In this document: positions 14,966 through 24,335 of the stretch, one piece after another
Numbering within the stretch: the stretch's first letter is position 1
How the letters are laid out: each line of letters begins with the position of its first letter
Origin: Parvularculaceae bacterium
GTDB lineage: Bacteria; Pseudomonadota; Alphaproteobacteria; Caulobacterales; Parvularculaceae
Length of the DNA stretch: 42,362 nt
Assembly (NCBI GenBank): GCA_021776435.1
Contig: JAJFFW010000123.1
Location: 1 to 42,362 of the forward strand
Direction: 5' to 3'
Notes under the pieces: model-generated
Told to the model about the DNA's origin: nothing
Seen by the model: the letters and a program-made list of their open reading frames with translations, nothing else
Database searches by the model: none
Position numbers and translations under genes: made by a program

Positions 14966-15002
14966 TGGAAAAGAGTCTAGCGAAGTCAAAGTGAGAGCTA
15001 AA

Positions 15003-16208
15003 ATGGCGATAAAAACTGCCGGAAAGACTAAATCCAAACCTGCAGCAAAGTCCAAGAAGGCGACACCAGTGGTCAAGCGGACCACCAAGGCGTCGGCGAA
15101 AACTGCTACAAAAAAAGTCACCACAAAAAAATCACCCTCTGGAGCCCAGAAAACCAACGCAGTCAAAAAAGCCACGACCAAGAAGGCGACTACACACAAA
15201 GCGCCTCCGAAGAAACCCTCTATAAAAAAACCAGTCGTAAAAAAACCAGTCGCAAAAAAGGCGGCGACAGTTAAGAAGGCGGCGACAGTTAAGAAGGCGG
15301 CGGCCTCAGAAACCACCAAAAAAAAAGCTACCAAAAAAAAGGCGACGACAACGACCGTCAAAAAAACAACGACAGCAAAACCCAAAAAATCAACAATCAA
15401 AAATGAGAAGAAGACGACTGTGAAGCAAGCGGCGGCCGAAAAAACGAGCGTTAAAAAAACAAAAAAACCTGCACCCAAAACCAAGGCAAAGAAACCGCCC
15501 ACAAAAACAGCCCTCGCCAAAATGGCGGCTATCGCGGAAAAAGAGAGAATCACGGCCGCCAGAAAACTGATCAAAAAAGGCACTGTCGGTCAGGCGCCGA
15601 GAACGTCTGTACGCGCACCGCAGACTCCTTACCCAACAACTCTACCGCCGAAAACTACGACACGGTTGAGCAGTTCTGCATCCAAGTCATCGCCTGAAGC
15701 CACGGCCGCCAAACAAAATTTCAAAGTTAATGATCAAATCGTTTATCCCGCACATGGGGTCGGTAAAATTGTCGCAGTTGAGCGTCAGCTTATTGCCGGC
15801 ACAGCCATAGAATTGTTCGTCATTGTATTCGAGCAGGAAAAAATGCGACTTCGTGTGCCCACCGAAAAAGCCAAAATTGTCGGCATGCGCGCCCTTTCCG
15901 ATCCAAAACTGATCAAAGACGCCATCATCACCTTGAAAGGCCGCGCCCGCATCAAACGGACCATGTGGAGCCGCCGTGCACAAGAATATGATGCAAAAAT
16001 TAACTCCGGTGACATCATCTGCGTGGCGGAAGTAGTTCGTGATCTTTACCGTTCAACAGAACAACCGGAACAGAGCTATTCTGAACGTCAGCTCTTCGAG
16101 GCGGCGATTGATCGGATGGCGCGTGAGGTGGCTGCGGTGAAGAAACTTGATCTTGCAGATGCGATCGCCGAGCTCGACGCAACCCTCCAGCTGAAACAGC
16201 CGGTTTAA
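15003..16208 (+). CDS. CarD/CdnL-family transcription regulator with histone H1-like N-terminal tail
   Basis: This 401-residue protein joins two parts. Residues 1 to about 190 are almost only Lys, Ala, Thr, Pro and Val in motifs such as KKAATVKKAATVKK, closely resembling eukaryotic H1 and bacterial H1-like tails that bind DNA non-specifically. After a Ser/Thr/Pro linker, the CarD domain begins at about 239 (FKVNDQIVYPAHGVGKIVAVE) and continues through the RVPTEKAK block, KGRARIKRTMWSRRAQEYDAKI and RQLFEAAIDRMA to the end. CarD/CdnL proteins bind the RNA polymerase beta subunit and stabilise open complexes, especially at rRNA promoters. The ordinary protein has about 160-170 residues, so this tail more than doubles it. 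I prefer the ATG at 15003 (MAIKTAGK) with GTGAG upstream. A GTG at 14991 would add four residues. A terminator hairpin lies 39 bases upstream. Confidence 0.9.
   Translation: MAIKTAGKTKSKPAAKSKKATPVVKRTTKASAKTATKKVTTKKSPSGAQKTNAVKKATTKKATTHKAPPKKPSIKKPVVKKPVAKKAATVKKAATVKKAAASETTKKKATKKKATTTTVKKTTTAKPKKSTIKNEKKTTVKQAAAEKTSVKKTKKPAPKTKAKKPPTKTALAKMAAIAEKERITAARKLIKKGTVGQAPRTSVRAPQTPYPTTLPPKTTTRLSSSASKSSPEATAAKQNFKVNDQIVYPAHGVGKIVAVERQLIAGTAIELFVIVFEQEKMRLRVPTEKAKIVGMRALSDPKLIKDAIITLKGRARIKRTMWSRRAQEYDAKINSGDIICVAEVVRDLYRSTEQPEQSYSERQLFEAAIDRMAREVAAVKKLDLADAIAELDATLQLKQPV
15261..15296 (+). repeat. Two identical 18-base tandem units in the carD tail
   Basis: GCGGCGACAGTTAAGAAG occurs twice head to tail and a third copy begins (GCGGCG). 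Each encodes Ala-Ala-Thr-Val-Lys-Lys. Just upstream, at about 15225-15252, a 15-base unit with AAACCAGTCG is also repeated. Exact DNA-level identity points to recent slippage growth of the basic tail. Confidence 0.9.
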
Positions 16209-16552: not shown

Positions 16553-17311
16553 TTACGCATCGACTTCGAGACGTTCTACTTGCTGGGGATGCGTAAGATC
16601 AATCGACGGCCCGTTAATGGAATGAACATAGCCACGAACGCGAATAGGCGCCCCTTCGAGGGCTGACAAAACAAAGTTATTTTTTCCCCAGCGCCGGTTT
16701 AATCGTGTGGTGGCGCTGGCGGTAAAATCTGCGCGATAATCGTCCCCGAAATTGAGGTAAAACCGTCCCCGCACTGCGATGGCGCGACGCACCACCCCCT
16801 CAACCAGATGAAATGCGCCAATCGCATCATCGGCCCTCAACGCATCACGCACTCTATAGGCGCGCAATGCCCATAACCCCCGGCGATCACGACGCGCCGA
16901 TTGTTCGGATTTTAACAGACGCTCCAGGAACGGTGTGTTTTGGGTTTCAGGAGCAACGCGAGCGCCGCCCGCGCCAATTAACCGTTCTTGAAGCGTAATA
17001 CTTTCTGCACCGATCACATTCGCATTGATGACCAGCCGCCCCCATCGATCGGGAGGGCCGGTTTCATTGATTGTGATGCGTGTGGTCGTCAGGAGTTCAG
17101 TCAATATGCGCTGCGCCTCATAAGCATAAAGATCCGGACCAGAGGCGAGACCGATCACTGCCGGCGCCATAATATCGGAGAGCCGGTATTCGATGTCATC
17201 TTGAACAAAGCTATCACCGGACAACACGGTCAGCCCGTTTTTAGCGCGTGTTCTCGCGGCCGGCGAAGCAACCGCCGCAAGGGCGCCACCGAGGAAAATG
17301 CGTCGTTTCAT
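16553..17311 (-). CDS. Staphylococcal nuclease-fold protein, exported, probably catalytically impaired
   Basis: This 252-residue protein has an N-terminal export signal with a Tat-like RRIFLGG start (residues 1-23). An SNase-like OB-fold follows at about 25-150, then a less conserved region. The SNase landmarks align without gaps. The equivalent of Arg35 is kept in RLSDIMAP, but Asp40 is Met and Glu43 is Ala (RLSDIMAPAV instead of RL-x-x-x-D-x-P-E). The Arg87 equivalent survives in DRWGRL. Glu43 is the general base in staphylococcal nuclease, so I expect little or no nuclease activity. It is the last gene of the minus-strand A2M-pbpC operon and overlaps the pbpC stop by four bases (ATGA). A periplasmic binding or structural role is possible but not shown. 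Confidence 0.75.
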   Translation of the reverse strand: MKRRIFLGGALAAVASPAARTRAKNGLTVLSGDSFVQDDIEYRLSDIMAPAVIGLASGPDLYAYEAQRILTELLTTTRITINETGPPDRWGRLVINANVIGAESITLQERLIGAGGARVAPETQNTPFLERLLKSEQSARRDRRGLWALRAYRVRDALRADDAIGAFHLVEGVVRRAIAVRGRFYLNFGDDYRADFTASATTRLNRRWGKNNFVLSALEGAPIRVRGYVHSINGPSIDLTHPQQVERLEVDA

Positions 17312-19389
17312 CCCGATGAAATCACACGTACTTTTGCTTGTGCGGATCGGCCCTCTTCATCGACAACCGCGACAGAATAAAAACCGGGCGCATCAGGTCG
17401 CCAGAGGGTTCGCCCGCTGGTGGTCTCAACGTCGAGCGGGTCGCCGTCCACGAACCATCGATAGGCGCCCGCGCCTCCCCTCGCCGCAAGAACAAAACCA
17501 CGCGTCTCGTCTTGGGTCATTCGATCAAAAATCTCCACTCCATGCCGTGGAAAGATGATCTCGGGCGCAGGCAACGGGTCTTGCCTGTTAAACCGCGCCA
17601 GAGCGAAGGGAGCTTCTTCTTTCTTCGGATTGAATTGGGAGTCACCAACGCCCTCAGCGTCATTGCGGTTGAGCATGTCAAAGAGGTCGAACAAAAGCGG
17701 CGCCGCGGCTGCTCGCCCCGTCACGCCAGGACGGGGCGCGCCGTCGGCGCGGCCAACCCACGCAACAACCGTGTAACGGCCCGCATGCCCTGCAGACCAA
17801 GCATCCCGATAACCGTATGAGGTCCCCGTTTTAAAGGCGATACGCGGCGCCGCTTGCGCCAATGCGCCTGGCGCGCGCCCGGCAAGCGAAGGGCCCCCGG
17901 CAAGGATCGCCCTCACACGGTGCGCCGTATCCTCCGACATCAGACGATACCCGCTACCTTCGCTCTCCGAATTGTCCTGGTTGGTCATCCAGTGTAACGG
18001 TCGCACTTCACCGTCATCGGCCAACGCCGCGTATAATGAGGCGATCTCGTAGGCGGTCACACCCGCGCCGCCGAGCGCGATCGCCAGACTTAGTTCAGGA
18101 TTGGCGCTTGTTGGCGTTTTCAACTTCACGCCCGCAGCGGAAAGAATGGCTGCAAAGCGCCGTGCGCCCACTTTATCGAGGGTGCGAACGGCCGGCACAT
18201 TCAATGAATGTTGCAAAGCGTCGCGAACCCGCACTTCGCCGCGAAACAGTCGGTCGAAATTCTCGGGCGTATAGCTGCCGAATGAGCGCGGCATGTCATC
18301 GATCACGGTGTCCGCGCCAGCAATGCCGTCTTCAAAGGCGAGCGCATAGATAAATGGCTTTAAGGTCGACCCCGGTGAGCGAACAGCGCGTGTTAAATCG
18401 ATCCAACCGCCGGGCGCATCAAGTCCCGAGGAGCCAACGGCAACTCTTATTTCGCGCCTTTCATTATCGATGATGAGGGCTGCAGCGGTGGCGCCGTCAT
18501 CAGTGCGCGTCGCATGTGTTCTGACAATAGTCTCCGCCTGTCTTTGTAATTTTATATCCAGGCTGGATGAGATAACGCCTTCCCCCTGGGTTCCATATTC
18601 TGCGGCCAGGCGACGCGACGTATGATAGGCGGAGCGGGCAAAAGGTTTGCGTGATGAAGGAATACGCGCATCCCCGGCCTCAACCGCGAGGCGATGATCC
18701 AGCATCCCCGTTTCCGAAAGCCTGTTCAAGATCGCCTGCCGGGCGGCCTTCGCCGTCACAGCGTGACGATCGGGCCGCCGTGCTTCCGGCGCTTGCGGCA
18801 ATGCGATCAACAGGGCCTGTTCAGCGTCGGTTAAATACAATGGCTCTTTTCCAAAATAGGAAAGGCTGGCGGCGCGAACACCTTCAAGGTTCCCGCCATA
18901 AGGCGCCAGGGTCAGATAAAGCTCCAGAATTTCCTGTTTTGTCAGGCGGCGCTCGATCTGAAGGGCACGGAGCATTTCGATAAATTTTGCACCGAAGGTG
19001 CGCGGCCTTGGCTCTAATAGTCGCGCCGTCTGCATGGTCAGGGTGGAGGCGCCAGACATAACCCGCCCCGCACGCACTGAGCTGAGTGTCGCGCGTAAGA
19101 CCGCAGCCGCGTCGATCCCTGGATGGCGCCAGAATCGTTTGTCTTCGACTGCAATGAGGCGCTCAACAAATGTCTGATCGATAGACTCAAGATCAGCCGC
19201 GAACCGCCACCGGTCTTGTTGGTTTTGAAATGCGTGCACCCATCGGCCCTCCCGGTCGACGACAAGGGGGCTGATATTTTGAACCCGCTCCAGAGGAGGC
19301 GGAAACAGGAAATCAAGGGCGACAACGGACACCGCGATAAAGGCGCCAAGCCCGAGAGCTTGCATCGCATATTGTCTCCAACCGCCCAT
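17308..19389 (-). CDS. pbpC: Penicillin-binding protein 1C
   Basis: This 693-residue bifunctional peptidoglycan synthase has one N-terminal membrane anchor (about residues 8-30). The glycosyltransferase domain contains the catalytic Glu82 in VEDKRFWRHPG, then GASTLTMQTARLLEPR and LELYLTLAPYGGNLEGV. The transpeptidase domain has Ser341 in SPGSTLKPF, SLN at 395-397 and KTGTS at 520-524. A C-terminal BiPBP_C/immunoglobulin-like domain (about 610-690, with PRHGVEIF and FYSVAVVDEEG) is the PBP1C signature. It overlaps the A2M stop by one base (TAATG on the minus strand) and overlaps the downstream nuclease-fold gene by four, so the three genes form one translationally coupled operon. The A2M partner fits the known YfhM-PbpC arrangement. 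Confidence 0.95.
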   Translation of the reverse strand: MGGWRQYAMQALGLGAFIAVSVVALDFLFPPPLERVQNISPLVVDREGRWVHAFQNQQDRWRFAADLESIDQTFVERLIAVEDKRFWRHPGIDAAAVLRATLSSVRAGRVMSGASTLTMQTARLLEPRPRTFGAKFIEMLRALQIERRLTKQEILELYLTLAPYGGNLEGVRAASLSYFGKEPLYLTDAEQALLIALPQAPEARRPDRHAVTAKAARQAILNRLSETGMLDHRLAVEAGDARIPSSRKPFARSAYHTSRRLAAEYGTQGEGVISSSLDIKLQRQAETIVRTHATRTDDGATAAALIIDNERREIRVAVGSSGLDAPGGWIDLTRAVRSPGSTLKPFIYALAFEDGIAGADTVIDDMPRSFGSYTPENFDRLFRGEVRVRDALQHSLNVPAVRTLDKVGARRFAAILSAAGVKLKTPTSANPELSLAIALGGAGVTAYEIASLYAALADDGEVRPLHWMTNQDNSESEGSGYRLMSEDTAHRVRAILAGGPSLAGRAPGALAQAAPRIAFKTGTSYGYRDAWSAGHAGRYTVVAWVGRADGAPRPGVTGRAAAAPLLFDLFDMLNRNDAEGVGDSQFNPKKEEAPFALARFNRQDPLPAPEIIFPRHGVEIFDRMTQDETRGFVLAARGGAGAYRWFVDGDPLDVETTSGRTLWRPDAPGFYSVAVVDEEGRSAQAKVRVISSG

Positions 19390-22300
19390 TACCGCGCCGC
19401 GCCGATGGACAGTTCACGCGCAGCCGTGCGTGCAACAACGCCCGGCCTGTACATGTCTTCGATCACAGCCCCGGGCAGCACATAGCCCCCCGGTGTCACG
19501 GCTCGAACGATGTAGGCGAGTGTGAAACGGTCCTTACGCAAGTCGACCGCGGCGATGAACCGATCATCACGCGCTTCTGCAACGCGCGGATAGGTGATCG
19601 CGCCGATCCATTTGTAAGGACCGGTTCGTCCCTCGCCGCCGCCATCATCAGGCCGCAGGATGGTTTCGATCTCAAAACCCGCAGGTAAAAGATCTGCGAT
19701 AATGGCCGGATGTAACCGGTCATCAGTGGCCTGACCTGTCAGGACAACAACGAGACGGTCGTTCTGGCGCACTGTTTTTAAATCCACCGGTCGACCATCA
19801 CGGGTGACGATCCTCTTCGACAGCGAGAAGCCTTGTGCAGTGGGCGCTGGCGGCTGGAGCGGCGCACCGGAGACCGTCACCGTGCGAAAGAGTTGTCCAT
19901 CGCCGTCATTGCGATAGGCGACCCCTGCCAATACGTCTTCTGCGCTTGGTTCAAATGACGGCGCCGGAGACAGGTTCGCCAACGCCTCCCCGTCTATCGA
20001 GATCGACACCGGCCCGGCGGCTCTCAATAGAGCTTGCGAGGCCAGCAACACAAAAGCCTTCTCTTGCGTGTGCAGTCGGGCAGGCTCTTTCATCATCGAT
20101 GAGAACGATTCCGAGAGGGACTCGACAAGATCATCGGCCCCGGTTTCCGCCGCCAGACTGAGAAGACCGGATACATCGCGCAATGGCGTTTGGTAATAAT
20201 CCGTCTGATTATCCCAACCGATCGCCTCCACGGCTTTTTTGAACGCACTGGTGGCGCGGGCGCGGTCGCCCATCATCGACAGAGCGGCGGCGATATGCGC
20301 CCGAGCCAGCGGGCTCGGCGTGTCATCCAGGAGCGCGTCATGAAAATAACGCAGGTCTGACAGATCCGCCCGCCCGGCGCGAGCCAGCACATAGAGCGCA
20401 TACGCAGCCGAACGCTTGCGAAGGTAAGCCGTCTTGTCGCTCGAATTGTTTCCTTCGTAAGCGCGTGTCTGGTAGCTCACCGAAATCCAACGATCAACGC
20501 GGGCGATCTGGGAGAGAGCTTCGTAGGACTGATCGAGCGCCGCTTGAGGGACTCCGTAGCCTGCAAGTTTTGCGCGATAGAGGAAATCAGTCACGTAGGG
20601 ACCGAGCCATGCTGACGCATACCCATCGCCTTCCCGCCAAAGTCCGAAAGCCCCGTCCGGTCCCTGGCGGTTGAGGAGCGTGTTGATGGCGGTTTGAACC
20701 CGTGGGCGCACCGCGCGTTCCGGTCCTCGACCCGCTTCCCCTCCAAGAATATCAATAAACAACAGCGGCATCGCCGAACTCGTCAACTGTTCCGAACAGC
20801 CATACGGATAGCGATACAGAGCATCGAGCAGCGGTCCGGGCTCCACGCCTCTGAGCCGCGAATAGGACACGCTGACCTCGGCAGAGCCTGTGATAAAGCG
20901 ATCAGTCAGCGCTTTGGTCAAAGCGAAGCTCTCGCCTGGCGCCTGAGCGACGGTGCGGACTTCCGTGACCGGAAAGAACGGCGTTCGCACTTGAATGGGA
21001 TACTCTCGTGACACCGCAAATCCACCTGCCCCGGCCACGTTTAACGTCACTTTGCCGATCCCGGTTTCGTTGGCGGAGAACGAAAAACTTTGCGTCTGTT
21101 TTTCGCCTTTTCGAAGCGTAAAGGTTTGTGTTTGAGAAAGCGCGATTGGTCCTTCGCCGTTCAGGGTCACGACATAGTCGCCATCGTCCCCGTCCACATT
21201 ATCGATCAAAAGCGTCGCTTGCGCTGTATCACCGGGCGCGAGATAGCGTGGCAATGCCAACTCTGCAGGGACGCGATCTCGCACCGTGAGAGGATCCGCT
21301 TTGGCGCCGAGCTTTTCATCGCTCCACGCAACCGCCATCAAGCGAAGCTCACCGTTAAAGTCAGGGATTTCGATCGGCACGACGGCGCGCCCGCCGCTGC
21401 CGACAGTCACCACGCCAGAAAACAGGGCGACCGATTTCGTGGGAACGACCGTCAGCCCCTCGCCGCCCAGTTGATCACCGCCAAATCGTTTTGGGGCGCC
21501 AAGATTTGCGTGCAGGATCCGTCCGTAGTCATCCCGTATTTCAACGCCGAGTTTCTTCTTACCGTAAAAATAATCAACCGGGTCGGGGGATTCGAACTTT
21601 GTCAGGCGCAAAATGCCCTCATCGACGGCGGCAAGTGTCAACATCACTCTTTCTCCGGCGCCCGCGCCCTTAATCGTCACCGGTAAGTCAAGCTTTTGGC
21701 GTGGACGCATAACCTCAGGCGCGTCGAAGGAGACTTCAAATGTACTGTCAGACATGTCGAACGGCACATAGGTGACAGCCATGGCGCGTCTGGGAACGGG
21801 CTGGTCGACAACTTCTCGCGGCGTCACGACTGTCGCGAGGACATAAAACCCCGCCCCCCAGGACGGGTCCGTGTCGATGATAATTTCGCGGCTTTTCTTC
21901 TCGACCTTCAGCCGTTGAACAAGGTGAACCTTATCCGTGGCGACGACCACGATGGCCTCGCCAGCATAAGGTGCATCCAGAACCAGCCGCGCGCGCGCGC
22001 CAGGGACCACTTTTGTTTCGGACCGAGTCAAGGCCGCTTGATCGGGCGTATCAGCGCCAGCCGCATAAGATCGCCACCCCACATAAAAGCGGATATCGGT
22101 CCGTGCCTCTGCGCCGGATTCCCAAACCGTCAAGCGGTAGGTTCCATAGTCAAGACGCTGGGAGATTTGCGTCTTTCCATCCGCTTTAGTTTGTGCACGC
22201 CCTTCGGCAATTAAAACGTCTTTATAGGATCGCCGCCAGCGCCATTCCCCATCATCCCGATACCAGTCAAACCAGTAATCTTCTTCAACCAACCGCCATT

Positions 22301-24335
22301 CGAGTTCGCCTTTCACCGCCTGGCCTTGCCAATCGATAAGAAGCGCATCGATCTCGGCAGGTTCGTTCCGGCCGAAGCCACTCCCCTCGCCGGCGCGTTT
22401 CAAGCCGACATAATGGTCGTCAGGCCGAACGGGAATGCGCGCACTTTCTCGAACCACGCGCCCGCCGGGCTCTACGACGCCGACAACCACATCAGCACGC
22501 ATAGGCGCGCCGATACCGACCGGCGCCTCATCAGCGGGTAGAATGAACTGTGCATTGCCCTCCCCATCCGTGACCGTATTTGGCAGATGGATAAAGCGCT
22601 CGTCAAAACGACTATTGACCGGTCCAAAACGATATCCCGGAGAATCCGGGAACGGATTGGGGTCAAGCCGTAACCGCACTTCCCCCTCAACAGCCAGTCC
22701 GGCCGCCGGCGCCCCATAGAGATACCGGCTGGCGACCGTTATCGGTCTGGTGTCGCCCGGCCGGATCGGAGTTTGCTCATCAAGGTCCAGTTTGACTTCG
22801 AGGCGCTGCGGCACAAAATCTTCGACGGAAAAGGAGTCTCCGCCAACCCGTCCTGCGCCGTCAGCCTCTACATCAATCCGCCAGACGCCCCTCGGCGCGG
22901 ATCGAGGGGTTTCATAATCAAATGTAAACCCGCCAATATTTGTCTTCTCGATACGGATATTTTTTGCTTCAACGCCGTTGGGTTTGCTGATGCTGACCGA
23001 CAGCTTCCGGTCTTCGACAGCCTTGCCGGCGGCGTCACGTAATAACCCTGAAATGTGAACCGTTTCGCCCGGTCGATAGATGCCCCGGTCAAGATAAACA
23101 TAGGCGTCAAGTTTCGACGGCGCCGCTCTGCCCGCGATGGCGTGATCGGACAAATCGAGGGGGGTGCGATCGAGATCAAGCGCCGCAAAATCATCTTGAG
23201 GACCGTACGCCATAATCATGCGCGGCGTCAGAGGATAATCTCCGTTAAGCGCCGGACCTTCGAAACGCGCGCGCCCGTCGGCATTGGTTACGGCCTTTGC
23301 TAGTTCATCATTATTGGTGGCAATCATGATCAACTCAACGCCAACGAGAGGACGCGCGGTTGATATGGAACGTGCAAAAACGTCTATGCCTTCAGCGCTT
23401 GAATAGGTGGTCAGCGCCATGTCCGTGAACATGATCCAACGCCAGGTGTTCGCCTGACGGCGGTTATCGGCTCCAGGAGAGGAATCGCGTGCACGGACAA
23501 AATAAGCGCCCGGCTTTAATTCTTTTAACGCGGCGCCAAGCGCGAATACGGTTGTCGTGGTTTCATTACGTTCACCAGAGGTTTCGATTTCGCCTTGCCA
23601 CACAAGAGCGCCAACATCGTCACCACTTTCCTCACCGTATACATAATCATAATCGTCTTCACCGCTTGAGCGCCCTTTGACCATCTCTTTGCGCGCAAGG
23701 GAGCGATCAGAAACGCGACGGACAGTGATTTCGACTTTTTCGACATTGACCGTTTCAATGCCAAGACCGTCAGCTTCAAGCCGGGGCAAGATTACGCCGT
23801 CCCCCGCAAAACCCACATAAGCAGGCTTATCGCCAAAGGCGACAACGATTTCCTCGGCGCGGGCAAGACGTTCGTCCTTGGCGCTTGGCAGTCCAGCCCG
23901 CAAGGTCACCCGGTAATCCTTGTCAAAAGACAGTCCTGAAAGGCAGAGCGACGTCCCGTCCGCATCGATCGCGGGTTTTTCTTCTGGGGTCAGGCGGACA
24001 AAATCTGCATAATTGACCTTTCCCGACCGATCGAGCGGGCGCGTAAACTGAAAGCAGGCGCGCGGTGTCTCGCCATCAGTTTCCAGGACCAGGCGCTGAT
24101 AGGCAAATTCATCAGGGATTTCTGACGCCGGCCGGCGCGCATCGTCGGCGCGGGGTTCCTGAAACGCCCGGCGCTGAAGGCCCGTATCATCCTCTCGCGT
24201 CTCTGAAGCACTCAAAGGTTGCCCGGTAAAAAGGGCGCTCTCTCCGCCGGGAGCGATCACACGCCCCAGCAAAACGCCCAACCCGAAGGCGCCCAGAATA
24301 ATTGCCGCTAATATCGCTGCTTTGCTGCGTGTCAT
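19389..24335 (-). CDS. Bacterial alpha-2-macroglobulin family protein (YfhM-like)
   Basis: This 1648-residue protein is a bacterial alpha-2-macroglobulin, a periplasmic protease trap that works with PBP1C. The N-terminus is a single hydrophobic anchor (residues about 8-29). I see no lipobox cysteine, so it may be held by this segment instead of by a lipid as in E. coli YfhM. Macroglobulin-like domains (MG) fill the first 1100 residues. The reactive thioester motif is intact: Cys1180-Ser-Glu-Gln1183 in YPYGCSEQLTSS, within the alpha/alpha toroid that follows. The GGRVVRESARIPVR region and several SAEGIDVF-type MG repeats also fit. A GGGAGG ribosome site lies 10 bases before the ATG, which is the first gene of the operon. 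Its length is typical of the family. Confidence 0.93.
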   Translation of the reverse strand: MTRSKAAILAAIILGAFGLGVLLGRVIAPGGESALFTGQPLSASETREDDTGLQRRAFQEPRADDARRPASEIPDEFAYQRLVLETDGETPRACFQFTRPLDRSGKVNYADFVRLTPEEKPAIDADGTSLCLSGLSFDKDYRVTLRAGLPSAKDERLARAEEIVVAFGDKPAYVGFAGDGVILPRLEADGLGIETVNVEKVEITVRRVSDRSLARKEMVKGRSSGEDDYDYVYGEESGDDVGALVWQGEIETSGERNETTTTVFALGAALKELKPGAYFVRARDSSPGADNRRQANTWRWIMFTDMALTTYSSAEGIDVFARSISTARPLVGVELIMIATNNDELAKAVTNADGRARFEGPALNGDYPLTPRMIMAYGPQDDFAALDLDRTPLDLSDHAIAGRAAPSKLDAYVYLDRGIYRPGETVHISGLLRDAAGKAVEDRKLSVSISKPNGVEAKNIRIEKTNIGGFTFDYETPRSAPRGVWRIDVEADGAGRVGGDSFSVEDFVPQRLEVKLDLDEQTPIRPGDTRPITVASRYLYGAPAAGLAVEGEVRLRLDPNPFPDSPGYRFGPVNSRFDERFIHLPNTVTDGEGNAQFILPADEAPVGIGAPMRADVVVGVVEPGGRVVRESARIPVRPDDHYVGLKRAGEGSGFGRNEPAEIDALLIDWQGQAVKGELEWRLVEEDYWFDWYRDDGEWRWRRSYKDVLIAEGRAQTKADGKTQISQRLDYGTYRLTVWESGAEARTDIRFYVGWRSYAAGADTPDQAALTRSETKVVPGARARLVLDAPYAGEAIVVVATDKVHLVQRLKVEKKSREIIIDTDPSWGAGFYVLATVVTPREVVDQPVPRRAMAVTYVPFDMSDSTFEVSFDAPEVMRPRQKLDLPVTIKGAGAGERVMLTLAAVDEGILRLTKFESPDPVDYFYGKKKLGVEIRDDYGRILHANLGAPKRFGGDQLGGEGLTVVPTKSVALFSGVVTVGSGGRAVVPIEIPDFNGELRLMAVAWSDEKLGAKADPLTVRDRVPAELALPRYLAPGDTAQATLLIDNVDGDDGDYVVTLNGEGPIALSQTQTFTLRKGEKQTQSFSFSANETGIGKVTLNVAGAGGFAVSREYPIQVRTPFFPVTEVRTVAQAPGESFALTKALTDRFITGSAEVSVSYSRLRGVEPGPLLDALYRYPYGCSEQLTSSAMPLLFIDILGGEAGRGPERAVRPRVQTAINTLLNRQGPDGAFGLWREGDGYASAWLGPYVTDFLYRAKLAGYGVPQAALDQSYEALSQIARVDRWISVSYQTRAYEGNNSSDKTAYLRKRSAAYALYVLARAGRADLSDLRYFHDALLDDTPSPLARAHIAAALSMMGDRARATSAFKKAVEAIGWDNQTDYYQTPLRDVSGLLSLAAETGADDLVESLSESFSSMMKEPARLHTQEKAFVLLASQALLRAAGPVSISIDGEALANLSPAPSFEPSAEDVLAGVAYRNDGDGQLFRTVTVSGAPLQPPAPTAQGFSLSKRIVTRDGRPVDLKTVRQNDRLVVVLTGQATDDRLHPAIIADLLPAGFEIETILRPDDGGGEGRTGPYKWIGAITYPRVAEARDDRFIAAVDLRKDRFTLAYIVRAVTPGGYVLPGAVIEDMYRPGVVARTAARELSIGAAR

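Follow-up and report, generated by a model that had tools for sequence, protein, structure and literature searches.

Gene content of the locus

The window, meaning the whole stretch of DNA that was analysed, covers 42,362 nucleotides of a contig from a Parvularculaceae bacterium. The genome holding this contig is a draft of 142 contigs, and its nearest named relatives are MAGs of Marinicaulis and Parvularcula. On the minus strand, the list of open reading frames (ORFs) gives the order A2M, pbpC and an SNase-like gene (16553-17311), which is referred to here, together with its protein, as SN. The genes and the junction under consideration are the following:

14991..16208, plus strand: CarD-like regulator, convergent neighbour and marker of the ancestral position of SN (Pfam, synteny)
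16553..17311, minus strand: SN, gene of an SNase-like/OB tandem protein of 252 aa, third in the operon (ORF, PF00565, structure model)
17308..17311, minus strand: stop/start overlap ATGA of 4 bases between pbpC and SN (ORFs; also found at 28 of 37 family loci)
17308..19389, minus strand: pbpC, penicillin-binding protein 1C (PBP1C), both catalytic motif sets kept (TIGR02073, Pfam, motifs)
19389..24335, minus strand: bacterial alpha-2-macroglobulin (A2M), type I, thioester motif CSEQ (Pfam, motif)

A2M and pbpC are adjacent and co-directional and have a single base in common (TAATG at 19389). The PBP1C scores 689.4 bits against TIGR02073, for which the cut-off is 494.2. It keeps EDKRFWRHPG, which we take to be the glycosyltransferase motif, as well as STLK, SLN and KTGT, presumably the transpeptidase motifs. 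The A2M carries GCSEQ, taken here as the thioester motif, with the cysteine at residue 1180 and in agreement with the CXEQ pattern. Because of the PBP1C match, its motifs and the thioester motif, the pair is assigned to the type I kind known from E. coli and other bacteria. Such A2M-PBP1C pairs are proposed to serve in the defence and repair of the bacterial cell wall, and little is known about their partners. The described type I operon, yfhM-pbpC in E. coli and others, combines a thioester A2M with a PBP1C (PMC4498604, PMC5764988). The locus in the window differs from this type by a third coupled SNase-OB gene, which is not mentioned in the available parts of these two papers.

Ahead of its CarD domains, the CarD-like protein carries a long N-terminal tail of about 235 residues that is rich in Lys, Ala and Thr and resembles histone H1.

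Domain composition of SN

SN consists of an N-terminal leader followed by two domains:

17240..17311, minus strand: N-terminal export signal, residues 1-24, with a twin-arginine-like RRIFL motif (sequence, RRxF[LIVM] counts, TatC in the genome)
16862..17239, minus strand: SNase-fold domain, residues 25-150 (Pfam, predicted fold)
16556..16858, minus strand: C-terminal OB domain, residues 152-252, with the motif YLNFGDDYRADFT (model, fold matches, invariant residues)

The leader begins with MKRRIFLGGALAAVAS and supports the export proposed in the original prediction. TatC is encoded in the genome of the window, and the leader may take the Tat route. The RRxF[LIVM] motif was found in 26 of the 37 fetched rows from the same family, compared to 1 of 62 rows from other families of the class.

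The SNase-like fold, which had also been proposed, was borne out by profile and structure comparisons. SN matches PF00565 with an E-value of 7.6e-9 and 36.4 bits, above the curated cut-off of 21. The full model has a mean pLDDT of 86 and a pTM of 0.81, and the predicted fold aligns to staphylococcal nuclease (1snc) with a Z-score of 16.5 over 121 residues at 2.3 A. Judged by profile and predicted fold, SN thus belongs to the SNase family by descent. It is alike to staphylococcal nuclease in fold, export and the above-cut-off Pfam match, but differs from it in the loss of Asp40, Thr41 and Glu43 and in the additional C-terminal OB domain. Cutting would therefore not be expected.

No Pfam or NCBIfam match was found for residues 152-252, and a fold search pointed to an OB fold instead of a known domain of these databases. 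The model of this part has a pLDDT of 93.4 and forms an OB beta-barrel. Its best matches are the anticodon-binding domains of Asp/Asn tRNA synthetases (AspRS/AsnRS), RPA, Stn1, PolC and RecG, with Foldseek E-values of about 1e-4 and Z-scores of 7.3-8.8; as these scores are middling and tied, they give the kind of fold and no specific OB family, and no family is excluded by not being among the matches. The matches are nucleic-acid-binding folds, and a shared fold proves no ligand. For the SNase and OB domains respectively, the mean column entropy amounts to 1.92 and 1.56 in the family and to 1.84 and 1.88 in the class. In the OB domain, Asn187, Phe188, Gly189, Asp191, Asp195, Thr197, Gly227 and Gly234 are shared by all 37 family rows. 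By these alignments, the OB domain is the best-conserved part of SN, and it is likely the ligand-binding part of the protein. The original prediction, which had suggested that a nuclease fold may have been repurposed for binding, for example of a glycan or nucleic acid at the cell wall, was thus supported in the SNase fold and its degenerate site but had missed this second domain, the more likely binding part.

In another genome (L183:8473-9897), the C-terminal OB motif ends a frame of 475 residues in which no SNase part was detected. The OB domain is therefore mobile.

Conservation of the neighbourhood and change of the operon partner

In the following, family refers to the GTDB family of the window genome, which is Parvularculaceae-like, and class to other families of the same class. 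A search with the window protein at E <= 1e-3 matched 39 of the 62 genomes of the family and, in the class, 183 out of 385. A tblastn search with the same protein gave no match in L106-L108. From the family, 37 other loci were fetched, with the gene starts in the relatives set by script.

In all 37 of these loci, pbpC lies directly upstream of SN, which rules out a chance adjacency in one genome. A2M precedes pbpC in 32 of them, and the contigs of the other five end inside or just past pbpC. carD is convergent with SN in 35 of 37. The overlap of pbpC and SN is exactly four bases at 28 of the loci, so that the translational coupling read from the ATGA in the window was supported.

The 62 class loci comprise 60 of the 183 matching genomes, mostly the best-scoring ones, and L008 and L009, and counts from them lean towards closer relatives. 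Neither pbpC nor A2M was found near SN in any of the 62, with flanks of up to about 9.5 kb that are shorter at contig ends. The adjacency of pbpC and SN is thus confined to the family. In 36 of the 62 class loci, a gene for an M48 peptidase is located downstream of SN. The start of this M48 cluster has a median distance of -3, corresponding to a four-base overlap with SN. SNase-OB and M48 therefore form a conserved operon in the class. At L158:7939-9417 and the 35 other class loci with this pair, the M48 peptidase has about 490 aa, and its gene overlaps that of the SNase-OB protein or lies very close to it. In 25 of 62 family genomes, a protein related to the class M48 was found at E <= 1e-10; none was found in the window genome, which has five PF01435 matches.

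At 39 of the 62 class loci, SN faces a convergent carD, which is accompanied there by a ferredoxin gene and in most cases also by terB, S4 and helicase genes. The same helicase-S4-TerB-ferredoxin-CarD block is present in the window. Because of this shared block, SN of the window corresponds by position to the class gene, with a changed operon partner. Full-length architecture and the place beside carD are the same in both groups. The class proteins differ by Gln40 and Lys43, by the retention of Asp19, Asp21, Arg35 and Arg87, by M48 instead of pbpC as partner, and by the near absence of the RRxF leader motif. For neither the A2M-pbpC-SNase triplet nor the SNase-M48 pair was a description found among open-licence PMC papers.

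Degeneration of the active site

The catalytic positions of staphylococcal nuclease correspond to the following residues of SN:

17183..17185, minus strand: Arg43 in place of Arg35, kept here; Arg35 in 4 of 37 family rows (alignment)
17168..17170, minus strand: Met48 in place of catalytic Asp40 (alignment)
17159..17161, minus strand: Ala51 in place of catalytic Glu43 (alignment)
17036..17038, minus strand: Arg92 in place of Arg87, kept here; Arg87 in 14 of 37 family rows (alignment)

The substitutions Asp40 to Met and Glu43 to Ala agree with the original prediction, and the full site of an active Ca2+-dependent SNase (Asp21, Arg35, Asp40, Glu43, Arg87) is broken at these two positions. The alignments additionally show Ser31 for Asp19 and Ala49 for Thr41, and Asp21 is kept as Asp33. 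The retention of both arginines, which had likewise been claimed, is true for the window protein but unusual in the family, and a conserved phosphate pocket formed by Arg35 and Arg87 is ruled out by their low counts there; the two arginines do not make up the conserved core of function.

Counts in the family are based on 37 rows, the window and 36 others, with the partial L104 omitted. Position 40 is Ile, Leu or Val in 30 of these rows, and position 43 is Ser, Pro or Ala in 31. Asp21 is kept in 21 of 37, and Asp19, Asp21, Arg35 and Arg87 do not occur together in any of the 37. Among the 68 class rows from outside the family, Asp19 is found in 61, Asp21 in 58, Arg35 in 64 and Arg87 in all 68. 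Gln40 and Lys43 each occur in 43 rows, and both are combined with Ala41 in 39. Asn40 with Glu43 is found in six of the 68, and Asp40 and Glu43 together in none. Outside the class, seven of nine matches were fetched; the rows used are six SNase-OB relatives from genomes of the same phylum, and L183 was excluded due to the lack of a detected SNase part. All six have Asp19, Asp21, Arg35, Glu43 and Arg87, and five of them Asp40, with Asn in the sixth.

Compared to random sets of six columns, the six catalytic columns are conserved beyond random in the class, where a fraction of 0.013 of the sets is as low, and show no extra conservation in the family (0.77 of sets as low). The conserved GIQAPK replaces the SNase motif GIDTPE in class rows, for example L109-L161, along with kept Asp19, Asp21, Arg35 and Arg87. 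From its sequence pattern, this site is regarded as a distinct second state rather than random decay. As the site is intact outside the class, mostly Gln40/Lys43 in the class and mostly aliphatic/Ser in the family, the loss began with the catalytic acids, across the class, and reached the phosphate-binding side at a later stage, in the family. The proposed tie between active-site loss and the joining of pbpC was not borne out: the loss is older and class-wide, and the joining of pbpC is ruled out as its cause by the 68 class rows, since pbpC adjoins SN at none of the class loci.

Arg89-Trp90 (17042-17047, minus strand), at the places of SNase Lys84-Tyr85, is invariant in 37 of 37 family rows, and the place of Arg87 nearby varies. 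It is possible that these residues form a new contact site in the family. The other invariant residues of the SNase domain in the family are Pro50, Gly115, Pro121, Gly145 and Trp147.

Possible role of SN

The reading preferred here is that SN is a non-catalytic exported tandem-OB protein that has switched partners, is coupled to PBP1C and probably serves as an adaptor in the A2M-PBP1C module. It is a tentative reading, with a probability of roughly 0.45. In this reading, the ancestor was an intact secreted SNase-OB nuclease. The nuclease-fold domain has lost its metal and base sites and would now serve as a scaffold, whereas the OB domain behind it is conserved and probably binds the ligand. 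Across most of the class, SN shares an operon with the M48 metallopeptidase next to carD. In the family, the M48 gene is missing from the locus and A2M-pbpC lies directly upstream, so that translation of SN is now coupled to that of PBP1C. SN would probably act as an adaptor in the same periplasmic defence and repair module. A binding or scaffolding function is probable, and we infer a functional link to PBP1C and A2M beyond the positional one. The odds that SN works with them rather than being a mere neighbour are about equal: the tight and conserved coupling speaks for a common function, and the position taken over from the ancestor and the independent losses of SN speak against one.

The strongest competing explanation, which is quite possible, is that SN is a positional hitchhiker. 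It would have kept an old, separate envelope function and its place by carD, A2M-pbpC would have landed upstream once, and the overlap would be the result of compaction. SN is convergent with carD whether its neighbour is M48, as in the class, or pbpC, as in the family. In L186, from another family of the same order, SN lies beside carD with neither partner detected. The shared place beside carD explains the adjacency without a functional link, which also counts against the adaptor reading. Furthermore, A2M adjoins pbpC in all six fetched loci without SN (L190-L195), so the pair does not need SN. Against this explanation, the four-base overlap has been kept despite an identity of only 34-52 % to the window SN at the loci keeping it, and no OB-bearing copy away from pbpC was found among the 62 family genomes.

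Another possibility is that SN is a decaying relic without a present role. A2M-pbpC has remained in place through several losses of SN. A profile search did not find an OB-bearing SN in several family genomes that keep pbpC; it detected partial copies at contig ends beside pbpC in G029 and G035, and a C-terminal remnant is left in G023 (L196). In four of the six loci without SN (L190, L191, L192 and L195), nothing of it is present between pbpC and carD, which lie side by side; in the other two, carD is not in reach of A2M-pbpC. SN is also the fastest-evolving of the three genes, with a median identity to the window of 46 % vs 61 % and 68 % for the other two. However, dN/dS over 14 close pairs is 0.12-0.28 for the SNase domain and 0.11-0.29 for the OB domain, and the OB and fold residues named above are the same across the 37 rows. 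Both domains are thus under purifying selection according to these estimates, and outside the active site the protein shows no decay, which makes a relic improbable. In a quick tree, a single branch with a support of 88 separates the family rows from all others, in line with vertical descent.

That SN is still a nuclease, with Asp21, Arg35 and Arg87 sufficing for weak or altered phosphodiesterase activity, is very improbable: all three are kept in the window, and Tudor-SN cleaves RNA though most of its catalytic residues are changed (excerpts of PMC5900569), but Asp40, Thr41 and Glu43 are gone, the family cannot depend on a site of which Asp21, Arg35 and Arg87 vary as described, and a second SNase gene of the genome carries DGDT and GLDAPE. 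Nuclease activity of SN is presumed to be absent; the kept residues and the Tudor-SN precedent speak against this presumption. In the accessible part of PMC5900569, Tudor-SN (SND1/TSN) shares with SN the SNase-fold domains with degenerate catalytic residues, and is unlike it in being eukaryotic and intracellular, with five SN repeats and a Tudor domain, two of the SN domains being active.

Returning to the adaptor reading, both successive partners, the M48 protease and the protease trap, concern envelope proteolysis, which suggests a role of SN there. A wider version is speculative and rather unlikely. It would describe a class-wide family of exported pseudo-SNase-OB proteins as adaptors in the control of envelope proteolysis, paired with M48 in most lineages and rewired in one family to the opposite kind of partner, the protease trap A2M with the wall synthase PBP1C. 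The Gln40/Lys43 site would be a calcium-free anion pocket, with Lys43 standing in for the metal, and would have been dropped at the switch. Its scope would be the 183 of 385 sampled class genomes with a relative of SN.

A third protein locked in the A2M-PBP1C operon across a family provides a direct handle on this system. The graded loss of the site under purifying selection, from intact over Gln/Lys to aliphatic/Ser, offers a natural series from an enzyme to a binding or scaffold protein. It also flags a widespread SNase-OB group whose members would probably be labelled as nucleases by automatic annotation.

The second SNase gene of the window genome (G000:C89:11068-11376, L002) has no OB domain, and an M48 gene is located near it.
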